A stretch of 32,028 nucleotides of DNA from contig DASYZR010000080.1 of assembly GCA_035945995.1 (NCBI GenBank), positions 1 to 32,028 of the forward strand, read 5' to 3'. The notes beneath the pieces are model-generated. The model saw nothing but the letters and a program-made list of their open reading frames with translations, had not been told where the DNA came from and ran no database searches. Position numbers and translations under genes: made by a program. This document shows positions 3,655 through 11,692 of this stretch, one piece after another. Positions within the stretch are counted from its first letter, which is position 1. Every line of letters begins with the position of its first letter. Source of the stretch: a bacterium (lineage in GTDB: Bacteria; Sysuimicrobiota; Sysuimicrobiia; Sysuimicrobiales; Segetimicrobiaceae).

Positions 3655-6600
3655 GACGAAACCCTCGCGGTGAGGCTGGGGCGGCGGGCTCGCCGGCGCG
3701 GTGCCGGCGCACGCCGTAGGCTCAGCGAATTCGCGGGCCGGGGCGCGCGGGCGGACGCTCCGTTCCCCTCGTCCGCCGCCACGACGGCGTCGGCCGACAG
3801 GGTGAAGAGCTCGCGCAGCGCGGCGTCGTCCAGCTCCGTGATCCAGTGCTCGCCCGCGCCCACGATCCGCGAGGCGAGATCGCGCTTGTCCTCCAGCATG
3901 CGATCGATCTTCTCTTCCACCGTGCCGGCGGCAAGGAGCTTGTACACCTGGACGGCCCTCTTCTGCCCGATCCGGTAGGCACGGTCCGTGGCTTGGTCCT
4001 CGACTGCGGGGTTCCACCAGCGATCGAAGTGGAACACACGGGTCGCTCCGGTGAGGTTGAGCCCCGTTCCGCCGGCTTTGAGTGAGAGTACGAAGACGCG
4101 CGGGCCCCGCTCATCCTCCTGGAAGCGCTGCACCATCCCCTCCCTCGCCGCTCGCGGGACACCGCCGTGCAGGAACAGCACCTCCGTCATGAGCAGGTCG
4201 CTGAGGTAGGCGACCAGCCGGTCGCCCGTCTCGCGAAACTGGGTGAAAATGAGCGCGCGGTCGCCGCCGGCGAGGACTTCCTCCAGCATCTCCCCAAGCC
4301 GGGCGAGCTTGCCGGATCGGCCGGCGAGCGGCGCCGACTCGCCCAGGTACTGCGCGGGATGGTTGCAGATCTGCTTGAGGGCGGTGATGAGCGCGAGCAC
4401 GCGGCCTCGCCGCTGGATGCCTTCGGATTCCTTGATCGTCCGCATCGCGTCGTCCACGGCCGCCCGGTAGAGCGTGGCCTGCTCCCTGGTCAGCGAGCAG
4501 ACGACCTTTATCTCGTTCTTAGGCGGCAGGTCCTGGATCACCGCCGGGTCGCTCTTGAGCCGGCGCAGGATGAACGGGTGGACGATCCGCCGGAGCCGCT
4601 CCGCGGCTTCCTCGTCCCGGTACCGCTCGATCGGCACCGCGTAGTGATGGCGGAACGTCTCGAGGCGGCCGAGGAGCCCCGGTGTGGCAAATTCCAGAAT
4701 GGACCAGAGTTCTGCGAGCCGGTTCTCTACCGGCGTGCCGGTCAGCGCGAAGCGATGCTGCGCGCGCAGCGCCCGCGCCGTCCGGGCGGTGTGGGACGCC
4801 GCGTTCTTGATGCTCTGCGCCTCATCGAGCACTGCCACCGCCCAGTCGACCGCGGACAACACCTCGGCGTCGCGGCGGAGCAGGCCGTAGGTGGTCAGCA
4901 CGACGGCTCCGGCCTGACCGTCTGCGAACGCCTCCGGAGACCGTGCGCGCTCCGTCCCGTAATGGCGCAAGATGGGCAGCGATGGAGCGAACCGGGTGAG
5001 TTCACGCTCCCAGTTCCCCACGACGGACGTGGGACACACAATCAGGTTGGGCTTGGCGTCCTCCGGCGCCGCCTGCCGCCGCGCGAGCAGGAATGCGAGC
5101 ACCTGGACCGTCTTCCCAAGGCCCATGTCGTCGGCTAGGCACGCTCCGAGACCCAGCGATGCCAGCGACCACAGCCAGGCGACACCGCGCTCCTGATAGG
5201 GACGCAGCGTGCCGTGCAGGCCGTGCGCGGCCGGTAGTGTGATGTCGCCGGCTCCGGCCTGCAACCGGCTGAGCACGCCCGCGAAGTCACCGTTCGGCAC
5301 GACGTCAACCGGGATGGCCGTGGAGGCGCTTCGGGTCGACCCGGCGAGTGCCGCCGAGAGCGCATCCGCAGCAGGCAACCGGCCCTCTCCCTCACGCAGG
5401 AACCGCTGAGCCTCCTTGAGTTCCGAGGGATCCACCGCGACCCACTGTCCCCGCCAGCGCACGAGTGGCGCCTTGAGCCGGGCGAGCGCAGCCAGATCGG
5501 CCGGAGAAAGCGCGTCATCCCCGAGCGCCGCCTCCCACCGGAAGGCGAGTAGCCCTTGGAGCGAAAGGCCGCGTGCAGCTCCAGCAGCGACGCCCGCCGG
5601 TGCGGCTCCGCCGCTGATCCGCATGCGGAGCCGGAGGCGCCGCCGTCCCGAACGCGTGAATTCGGCCGGCAGGATGACGCCGAAGCTGGCCTCGCCTAAA
5701 ACCGGCGCGGCCTCGGTCAAGAATGTCCAAGCCTCTCCGGAGTCCAGCATCACCCCCGCCGGTCGAGTCTCGCGAAGGCTTCGCTCGATCGGTGGGAACA
5801 CGCGCGCCGCAATGGCCAAAGCCCGGAGGAGACGCTCCTGCGGTTCCTCAAAAACGCGCCCCAGGTGTCGCAACGCCTTCCCGCGCGTGTTCCAGATTTC
5901 GCCGGCCGGGACAAGGAGGCTGGGGTCATCGGGCGCCTGGAGGAAATAGCGGAGGTGGAACGGGCCGGCGGCGCGGCCGTCCGGGGATCGGGCTGCGTCC
6001 GTCTTGTCTCCTTTAACTTCCGGCAGCTCAAGCCGCAGGCATGCGCGTGCAGCGCCGGGCTCGACGCCGAGCGCCGGCCGGCTCCAGTTCATCACCTCGT
6101 CGAGCAACCCGCGGTCGCGGAAGCCGACCGTCTCGAACGCTGCGTCTCTCGACGTCAGCGCGGCCACGAATCTCTGTTCCCATGGAAGCGGGGCCGCCTC
6201 GCGTTTCTGCCGGGGTGCTCCACCGTGCCGCGTGCCGCCCGGTACAGCAGCCGCGCGCAAGATCCCGTCCGCCGCCATGTCGAGAAAGGTGCGGAGGAGT
6301 GCGTCCGGCGCCCAGACCGGGACCCGCGTGGCGGAGCCCGTTCGGCCGCGCCCACGCACGGCCGGGGCCTCCGCCACCACGGGCACCGCGTGGGCCGCAG
6401 GCGGAAACACCTGTGCCAGCGTCTTCGCGCGGTCGGCATCGTTGGACAGCGAGAGCGCGATACCCCAGCGCGCCTCCATTCCGCCGTCTGGTCGCGGCTG
6501 CAGCCGCGGCACCACGCGCTCGCGTCCGATGAGTTCAAGGGCGAGTTTCGCGGCGTAGCTCCAGGCTGCGACCGATGCCGGTGCGCGCTCGGCTTCCTCG

Positions 6601-9446: not shown

Positions 9447-9995
9447 TCAAATCTCGTACTGACAAGTCTGGTCGGCCTGTCCCAAGCCTAACATCTCCAC
9501 AAGCTTGCCAAATCCGTCGGCGAACGCCATGGACGCGCCGAGTTCGATCAATTCCTCGTCGCTGAAATGCTCTTTCCAGCGCTCCATGTGCTGATCCCCG
9601 ATGGCCCGGTAGTCCTCGGTGAACATCGTGGCCATCTCCAGGGCCGCGCGTTCGCGTCCGGTGAAGATCGGATCACGCGGGTCCCAGGTCGCGTCGATCT
9701 TGGCCTGATCAATGCCCATTTGCTCCGCCACGGCGGAGCGGACGCCGCTTCAATACCCGCAGTTCCGAAGGCGCGCCATCCGAACGCGCATCAGCTCCTT
9801 CAGCGGATGGTCGACGATCCCGCCGTAGAACGTCTCCTGCCAGCCAGCGTAAAACGCATTGAGCGCGCCGGGGTGCCGGGCAAGGATCCGCAGGAGCGCC
9901 GGATTCGGTGCACCGCGCCTGGCCGCGTCGTCGAACGCCTGCTGGACATCCGAGGTGACGACGCGGGCGTCCACCGGAAGAATGCGGACCGCCAT
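9447..9995 (-). CDS. AhpD/carboxymuconolactone decarboxylase-like selenoprotein (in-frame UGA at 9752-9750)
   Basis: Two ORFs in the same frame, separated only by one TGA, make a single 182-aa protein. The start ATG at 9995 (MAVRILPVDA) follows GGGGAGG. The upstream part ends KELMRVRMARLRNCGY and the downstream part begins SGVRSAVAEQMG. AhpD/CMD proteins have a redox CxxC here, commonly written as CxYCSxVRS in this subgroup, so the TGA falls on the second cysteine: C79-G-Y-U82. A hairpin meeting bSECIS rules follows directly. The rest (FTGRERAALEMATMFTEDY, SDEELIELGASMAFADGFGKL) is the normal helical CMD tail, so the part after the TGA is under selection. Expected role: thiol/selenol peroxidase or disulfide-type redox protein in the cytoplasm. 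Last gene of an operon with DUF1326 and DUF2182 (35-nt gap). Alternative: a point mutation or sequencing error turning TGC/TGT into TGA. Confidence 0.85.
9722..9739 (-). promoter_or_regulatory. Candidate bacterial SECIS element
   Basis: On the minus-strand RNA, ten bases after the UGA, GCUCCGC pairs perfectly with GCGGAGC around the tetraloop CGUG. The apical loop therefore starts 17 nt after the UGA and has G as its second base. As I recall, bSECIS elements need an apical loop about 16-37 nt from the UGA with a G among its first two bases; both hold. The element lies inside the coding sequence (residues about 86-91), where bacterial SelB-binding hairpins sit. Confidence 0.65.
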
Positions 9996-10030
9996 GTGAT
10001 CAGCCTCCCCTGCCGCAGTTTGCTGCCAGG

Positions 10031-10813
10031 CTACATCGCGGGCACACGCAGAAGATACAGGGCCCACGCGATCAGCGCGATGCCCGTGACGCGGCCGGGC
10101 CAGGGACCCCGTAGCGCCGTCTTTTCCAGGAGGACGAAGATGGCAAGCACGGCGACCCACAGCAAGTTCATCACCCCAACCACGAACAGCACACCCATGA
10201 GCGCCCAGCAACACCCGACGCAGTAGGCGCCGTAGCGGACGCCCATCAGCGCGGCGCCCCAAGCACCGCTTCGCCACCGTGTAAACAGGAAGCCGAGCGG
10301 CGATTGGCATCGGGCGAGGCATGCGTGCTTGACCGGCGTGAGCTGGTAGAGGCCGGCCACGACGAGAAACGCGGCGGCGAGAGGGAGTCGCGCCACCGTC
10401 AATTGCGGGGTCAGGACGAGACCCGCCTGCAGCGCCCACTGGAGTCCGGCCGCGAGCCAAGCCCAGGCGCCCCACATCAAGAGAAATCCGGCCGCAAAGA
10501 GCCCCGCCGAAATTCCGATGGCTCCCGCCCGTTGCTGCGCGCGCTGCGCGCCGGAAAAGAAGAGCAGCATCGGCGTCGCCGAGGGCAGCATCATGGCGAC
10601 CATCATGACGCTCCACATGGCGCCGGCGGCCAGGAGATCCGGGATGCTCCAGGCGATCGCACTCGGCATAACCATAACCATACTCACGCCCATGCCGGGA
10701 TCGTGCGTCATCTCGCCGATCCGGCGCCAGAGGTCAAGCCACGCGAGCGCCGTCAGCCCTGCGATGCCCGCGACAACAACGGACCGGTCACGCGAGAAAA
10801 TGGCCGCCTGCAT
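10031..10813 (-). CDS. DUF2182 integral membrane protein
   Basis: 260 aa, start ATG 10813 (MQAAIFSRDR), with about six hydrophobic segments. The family signature MWSVMMVAMMLPSATPML is at residues 66-83 and the second signature GAYCVGCCWALM lies near 195-206. DUF2182 proteins are described as predicted metal-binding membrane proteins; the Met-rich and Cys-rich motifs are the likely ligands. The upstream neighbour encodes DUF1326 (32-nt gap) and these two families are commonly encoded together; the downstream neighbour is the Sec-containing AhpD-like gene. The trio suggests a membrane-linked metal or thiol redox function. Biochemical role is unknown in the literature I can recall. Confidence 0.9.
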   Translation of the reverse strand: MQAAIFSRDRSVVVAGIAGLTALAWLDLWRRIGEMTHDPGMGVSMVMVMPSAIAWSIPDLLAAGAMWSVMMVAMMLPSATPMLLFFSGAQRAQQRAGAIGISAGLFAAGFLLMWGAWAWLAAGLQWALQAGLVLTPQLTVARLPLAAAFLVVAGLYQLTPVKHACLARCQSPLGFLFTRWRSGAWGAALMGVRYGAYCVGCCWALMGVLFVVGVMNLLWVAVLAIFVLLEKTALRGPWPGRVTGIALIAWALYLLRVPAM

Positions 10814-10845: not shown

Positions 10846-11454
10846 TCACGCGGCCCACGAAAACGGCGCGGAGTGGCCGTTCTTGCCGTCGTTTGAGAAT
10901 TCGAGGCCGAAGGCTTTGACCCGCGACGTCGTGGCCCTGGCGATCGTCAACGTCGAGTTGGCGGGATGGAATAGTCCGGTGAGCTTCGAGACCTCGCCCG
11001 TGTTGCTGTGCGGCGGGACGAAATCCTCGATCTCGATGTCGACGGCGCTGCCGATCGTGACGCGATGCCGGCGGCCGTCGTCCTGATAACGGATCGGCAC
11101 CGTTTCCACGCCCAGCATCTCCCCGATCAGCGGGACGAGGCCGGCCATCGGGCCGCCCAATTGTCCGGAGAACACGGCGCCGAGTTTCTCGGCCTGCTGC
11201 GGCGACGCCGCGGCATCCATGAACACACCGACGCGCCACTTGCCGCTCAGCATCTCTCGGGGCGTGTCGGCGAGCACCGCCACACTCAGATTGCCGACGT
11301 CGACCCCGTCAACTTTGCCGGAGTCGACGTGGAACGCGAGCACGACCCGGCACCGTTCATTGTCGGCGGGCATGGTGAGCCCGGAGGTAGTACACGGGCA
11401 GACCATATTGCAGTTGCAGTTCTCAAAATAGGTGCCCTTGAGGGACCACGCCAC
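10846..11454 (-). CDS. DUF1326 domain protein
   Basis: 202 aa from GTG 11454 (read as MAWSLKGTYF), chosen because AGGTGG lies 5 nt upstream and family members begin just before W-x-L-x-G; in-frame TTG 11487 and GTG 11463 are longer options. The hallmark Cys cluster FENCNCNMVCPC gives C13, C15, C19 and C21. Then come the family blocks CRVVLAFHVDSGKVDGVDV, WRVGVFMD, QQAEKLGAVFSGQLGGPMA and the C-terminal GLEFSNDGKNGHSAPFSW. No signal peptide or membrane segment. The Cys cluster probably binds a metal ion. First gene of the minus-strand operon with DUF2182 and the CGYU protein. Function unknown; a metallochaperone-like or redox role with DUF2182 is inference. Confidence 0.9.
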   Translation of the reverse strand: MAWSLKGTYFENCNCNMVCPCTTSGLTMPADNERCRVVLAFHVDSGKVDGVDVGNLSVAVLADTPREMLSGKWRVGVFMDAAASPQQAEKLGAVFSGQLGGPMAGLVPLIGEMLGVETVPIRYQDDGRRHRVTIGSAVDIEIEDFVPPHSNTGEVSKLTGLFHPANSTLTIARATTSRVKAFGLEFSNDGKNGHSAPFSWAA

Positions 11455-11692
11455 GTTCGCCACCTGCCTTCCGGGCTTCGGCTCCAAAGTTCATCGGCTC
11501 GGACCCGCGGATTTGCCCAATTACGGGGCGACGCTTTCGATTCCCTTTCGGCGGCCGTCTTGCTACGACGCCTGAATAAGCCCGTTGAACCGGCCAGCCA
11601 TTCGTGTTCGCTCATCGGTCACATTCTCTGGTCGAGATCCGTCATCATAGGGACGAGCGAAACCCAATCGATGTGATAAGGGGGAGTATTTC

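Follow-up and report, generated by a model that had tools for sequence, protein, structure and literature searches.

This locus raises the question of whether a TGA codon inside an AhpD-like reading frame ends the protein or is translated as selenocysteine (Sec), and which kind of enzyme would result. The window, that is, the whole analysed stretch of 32,028 nucleotides, carries on its minus strand a frame from 9995 to 9447 with only one internal TGA (local sequence NCGY-U-SGVRS, C79-G-Y-U82). The original prediction had put this TGA on the second cysteine of a CxxC motif, behind a strong ribosome binding site and ahead of 100 family-like residues free of further stops, and all three points were confirmed. 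The conventional gene caller output consists of two pieces, 9447..9731 and 9750..10616. The features of the gene are as follows.

9447..9995, minus strand: ahpD-like gene, predicted to encode a selenoprotein of 182 residues including Sec82; ATG at 9995-9993, stop TGA at 9449-9447; Pfam CMD (PF02627)
9750..9752, minus strand: in-frame TGA, codon 82, predicted from the orthologue comparison to be translated as Sec82, which occupies the second Cys position of the CxxC motif
9759..9761, minus strand: codon of Cys79, putative partner (resolving) cysteine, invariant in the alignment
9795..9797, minus strand: codon of Glu67, which corresponds to the Glu of the proton relay and precedes the first Cys by 12 residues (cf. 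AhpD Glu118/Cys130)
9738..9740, minus strand: codon of Arg86, in the place of the AhpD relay His, four residues past the second Cys in the alignment with homologues
9722..9739, minus strand: bSECIS-like hairpin with a 7 bp stem and a CGUG loop
10004..10011, minus strand: Shine-Dalgarno sequence AGGGGAGG, 8 nt upstream of the ATG

The TGA was retained in all eight family orthologues (75-86% identical), none of which has TGC or TGT, and the codon aligned with Cys in homologues of the CxxC type (in PA0269, with the second Cys), as expected if position 82 were Cys or Sec. In the six full-length orthologues, amino acid identity averaged 0.74 before the TGA and 0.78 after it, and on either side of it conservation was far higher at codon positions 1 and 2 than at position 3. 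A sequencing error, or a mutation disabling a normal AhpD gene of the CxxC type, as the split of the frame by the gene caller might suggest, was excluded as virtually without probability, since the same TGA occupies the same codon in eight genomes and purifying selection acts both before and after it. Regulated termination, with a truncated protein of 81 residues as the main product and read-through minor or regulatory, would suit the selenium dependence of UGA read-through by SelB; however, conservation downstream of the UGA is no lower than upstream of it, and more than half of the CMD fold lies downstream, which makes this explanation very improbable. Only one named relative was obtained, in the contig scan: its protein is 77% identical and lies in 'Terrabacteria group bacterium ANGP1' (contig VBAO01000017.1), which now bears the name Candidatus Segetimicrobium genomatis and belongs to the phylum Ca. 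Sysuimicrobiota. Among plasmids, the only relatives were CMD proteins at no more than 33% identity, some of them unannotated at the match, and no relatives were found on viral contigs.

The hairpin (GCUCCGC-CGUG-GCGGAGC, 9739-9722) starts 10 nt past the UGA and fits the bSECIS constraints published in PMC13188914: a loop of 4 nt with G second and then U, a UGA-to-loop distance of 17 nt, and a stability of -12.4 kcal/mol. In a single sequence it does not exceed chance (z -0.33 for 52 nt; P about 0.07 by synonymous-codon shuffling), and hairpin stability was therefore rejected as evidence in single sequences. Such a hairpin is not rare in a GC-rich gene of this kind. The signal comes from the comparison of orthologues, where pairwise synonymous identity reached 0.84 in codons +1 to +11 past the UGA versus 0.52 over all other codons of the gene (P 5e-5 by permutation). 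A peak of synonymous constraint right after the UGA was also present in two paralogue clades (P 0.005 and 0.012, the second clade comprising three sequences), whose stems are quite different and lie in the same place. Among the orthologues, the stem varied only once (L020), and this change affected both sides together (C-G to U-A). Thus, of the proposed bSECIS-like hairpin at the right distance, the agreement with the published rules stood, and synonymous constraint in three clades supports a role for the element; significance in the single sequence was not reached.

The genome was also expected to encode the machinery of Sec insertion, and selA, selB, selC (tRNA-Sec) and selD were all found in the same assembly.

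C155:1953-2043: tRNA-Sec with anticodon UCA, 70.8 bits
C155:3862-5733: selB
C155:5846-7204: selA
C5:47185-48105 (L047): selD, with its own in-frame TGA near the N-terminus (residue 11 of the matched stretch), itself likely a selenoprotein gene

A strong tRNA-Sec together with selB was detected in seven of the eight family genomes with the gene, the exception (G011) being 68% complete. The same assembly contains a likely further selenoprotein gene, an AhpD-like paralogue with a CPFU...N motif (G000:C112:1945-2409, L110). ECEYU paralogues with a TGA occur in G031 (C44, L029) and G034 (C317, L028), where strong tRNA-Sec and selB were not found (94% and 72% completeness); their sister genome G028 has a tRNA-Sec, and the lack may reflect either assembly gaps or a loss of Sec decoding. 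Genome G008 (contamination 6%) contains two different tRNA-Sec and selB pairs (C34:5051-7033 and C11:65169-68679), which may mean either that a second Sec system is present or that the bin is mixed.

The UGA could also be read with another amino acid, Ser or Cys, inserted by a differently charged tRNA with a UCA anticodon. A second tRNA of this kind is indeed present in the assembly, on a contig of 5 kb (C24, L061). It gave 56.6 bits with the Rfam tRNA-Sec model, has no encoded CCA, and adjoins an unusual tRNA (long variable arm, anticodon UGC) that is absent from the Rfam matches (4245-4331 and 4355-4441); possibly, the two represent an allo-tRNA pair or a contaminant contig. Against such charging, the tRNA-Sec, selA, selB and selD set of the genome is complete, and no second score like that of the C24 tRNA was obtained in the other genomes keeping the TGA, except for the duplicated tRNA-Sec/selB in G008. 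Weaker hits of 51-54 bits occurred elsewhere, and the five inspected were tRNA-Ser(UGA). The synonymous constraint after the UGA fits SelB-dependent decoding, and insertion of Ser or Cys appears very improbable. Judging from the UGA conserved in the orthologues, the absence of a Cys form among them and the Sec machinery, codon 82 is almost certainly read as selenocysteine, and the likely CxxU selenoprotein of the original prediction was borne out; the computations support Sec coding. In the remainder of the window, a scan of TGA-joined frames, judged by eye and by third-position GC only, revealed no other convincing read-through gene.

The protein belongs to the CMD family by Pfam (PF02627, 35.5 bits versus a gathering cut-off of 23, E 1e-8). 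An AlphaFold model built from an alignment of 28 sequences (mean pLDDT 86, pTM 0.82) matched AhpD-like PDB structures, namely Bmp8, 2prr, PA0269 (2ijc and 2o4d) and the D. radiodurans protein 6k40. The closest fold over the whole chain was that of the tetrabromopyrrole debrominase Bmp8 (6ohj/6ohi; E 3e-7, TM 0.86; identity 16-17%), an enzyme of marine natural-product metabolism that relies on Cys rather than Sec. PA0269 matched with a TM by query length of 0.66-0.67, and the fold match to M. tuberculosis AhpD was weak (1gu9, E about 1). In both of these proteins, the same helix pair carries Glu, Cys, Tyr and Cys in register with the protein studied here, in which Sec replaces the second Cys and Arg replaces the relay His. 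Altogether, it is highly probable from the sequence comparisons that the gene codes for a Sec-containing redox enzyme with the CMD fold, and the fold assignment is supported by computation.

None of the NCBIfam cut-offs was reached. TIGR01926 gave 40.2 bits versus a curated cut-off of 81.8, and NF041238 gave no match. The best NCBIfam match was NF053654 (75.1 bits, E 5e-21, versus a cut-off of 310), the 'YciW-related (seleno)protein' family, whose name implies Sec; the protein is not a member of it, and the CPFU-N paralogues (L045) are nearer to this family (136 bits). Because the protein lies below every NCBIfam cut-off that it touched and breaks the His rule of AhpD, it was classed as a Sec-containing variant of the CMD superfamily and not as AhpD proper. 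That AhpD-like selenoproteins had already been reported is correct: CxxU proteins of the AhpD-like or CMD-like type have appeared in catalogues from the Sargasso and GOS surveys onwards (PMC1088965, PMC2398784, PMC13188914), including AhpD-like 1 (COG2128) and AhpD-like 2 (PF02627) in the GOS survey (PMC2398784) and rows for TIGR01926, PF02627 and NF041238 in the catalogue of PMC13188914. These selenoproteins belong to the same superfamily and have Sec at the second CxxC position, whereas the residue four positions after Sec is Arg here and not His. The catalogues quoted state only the CxxU motif for these proteins, and the branch may coincide with one of their entries. The CxxU class as such is thus known, and the branch with Arg may be new, as far as one release of family models and a limited literature search indicate.

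The relay described for PA0269 comprises Glu36, Cys48, Tyr50, Cys51 and His55, with His invariant among the structures compared (PMC3141380). Alignment with PA0269 gave Glu67, Cys79, Tyr81, Sec82 and Arg86 as equivalents, and the computations support the positions assigned to Glu67, Cys79, Sec82 and Arg86. The definition of an AhpD-like peroxidase in PMC3141380 requires a CxxC motif, a His four residues on and a relay Glu, and the protein has Arg86 instead of this His. Among the Sec proteins sampled, 35 had Arg at residue 86, 15 had Asn and 7 had His, while the CxxC proteins sampled had His in 14, other residues in 7 and Arg in none of 21. All 35 sampled members of the Arg86 type, which come from two bacterial groups, contain Sec; these are not independent events, because some rows are near-copies and two proteins of bacterial group f144 (from G316 and G179) were counted twice. 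In a tree computed without the motif columns, the Arg proteins fell into two groups, the clade of the window (SH-aLRT 99) and a second one (SH-aLRT 96), which joins ECEYU paralogues and proteins of f144. A single origin of the Arg proteins does not follow, since the deep order of the tree is unsettled. Judging from the sampled members, the Arg branch is so far known only in the Sec form, for which the computations provide support.

In f144 (18 genomes), AhpD/CMD-like proteins are strongly expanded: a genome gives as many as 14 matches, of which most contain a single in-frame TGA (L118 on G179:C32, and L124-L153); one f144 genome may carry about ten AhpD-like selenoproteins. In most f144 genomes, a CxYU-R selenoprotein gene is directly followed by a paralogue with Asp and Phe in place of Cys and Sec (DTYF...R), as in L118:1913-3155 and L063:1501-2718. 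This conserved pair of an active and a dead protein perhaps forms a hetero-oligomer. An aminotransferase-like gene, as read from the translation, lies upstream of the pair in G179 and G316. A further reading, which can be offered only tentatively and is more doubtful than probable, is that of an obligately Sec-dependent CMD/AhpD branch (approximate signature [DEG]HxxKE[LI]xxV...CxYUxxxRS), in which the relay His would have been swapped for Arg so that the remodelled active site requires Sec and could not revert to Cys, the substrate would be other than peroxide, and a catalytically dead DxxF paralogue would be paired with the enzyme in one bacterial group.

In ordinary AhpD, His is part of the thiol-activating proton relay (PMC3141380). 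In the protein studied here, codon 82 is most probably decoded by SelB with Sec-tRNA(Sec), and the hairpin just past the UGA would direct this step. By analogy with AhpD, we infer the chemistry, substrate and electron donor of the enzyme as follows. Sec82 would act as the nucleophile on an oxidised substrate, for which a peroxide is the likeliest candidate; Cys79 would then resolve the product to form a Cys79-Sec82 selenenylsulfide, which a cellular thiol system would reduce. The pKa of a selenol is near 5, and a selenol would need no His base. Arg86 in place of His would be tolerated because at neutral pH the selenol has already lost its proton, and a role of Arg86 itself may lie in holding the selenolate or in binding a substrate that is an anion. 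Most likely, the protein acts as a Sec-dependent thiol-peroxidase or as a reductase that forms a selenenylsulfide. Because the relay His is absent, peroxidase activity of the AhpD type cannot be taken for granted, and the arguments for and against peroxidase as the actual activity appear about evenly balanced.

The same scaffold could serve a different chemistry, with Sec82 and Cys79 removing a halogen or another leaving group in a reductive dehalogenase like Bmp8 or in some other reductase. The best PDB fold match and the missing relay His of peroxidatic AhpD point in this direction, and a parallel has been drawn between Bmp8 and thyroid deiodinase, which is a selenoenzyme. However, the identity to Bmp8 is low, other AhpD-like structures had close fold scores, and no halogen-related genes were recognised nearby; this function is a plausible rival but seems unlikely.

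Two genes lie upstream of the selenoprotein gene in the window, on the same strand.

10031-10813, minus strand: PpoB2/DUF2182, directly upstream of the selenoprotein gene
10846-11487, minus strand: DUF1326, adjoining PpoB2/DUF2182

Both DUF2182 and DUF1326 are linked to copper delivery in Marinomonas (PpoB1/PpoB2). A copper-handling redox operon, which these two genes had suggested, was rejected, as DUF2182 and DUF1326 were not near the gene in the seven other genomes, where some contigs are short. The neighbours there, as read from translations, included ABC substrate-binding proteins, a DJ-1/PfpI-like protein together with a glyoxalase-like one, an allantoinase-like protein and a short-chain dehydrogenase. 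The operon had been thought to deserve a close look, and its neighbours proved to differ among relatives; the gene thus stands on its own, and no substrate can be read from the genes around it. Elsewhere in the window, a c-di-GMP-II riboswitch aptamer was detected at 1565-1648 on the plus strand (62.3 bits).

Ca. Segetimicrobiaceae, to which the window most likely belongs, is an abundant soil family of the phylum Sysuimicrobiota (PMC11604079), and the description of this phylum does not mention selenium. The finding points to selenium use in Sysuimicrobiota. Standard gene callers would cut the gene in two, and an active redox enzyme from an uncultured phylum abundant in soil would then be missed. 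The Arg branch would offer a direct test of whether, with Sec, the enzyme can do without the His by which its Cys counterpart is activated.
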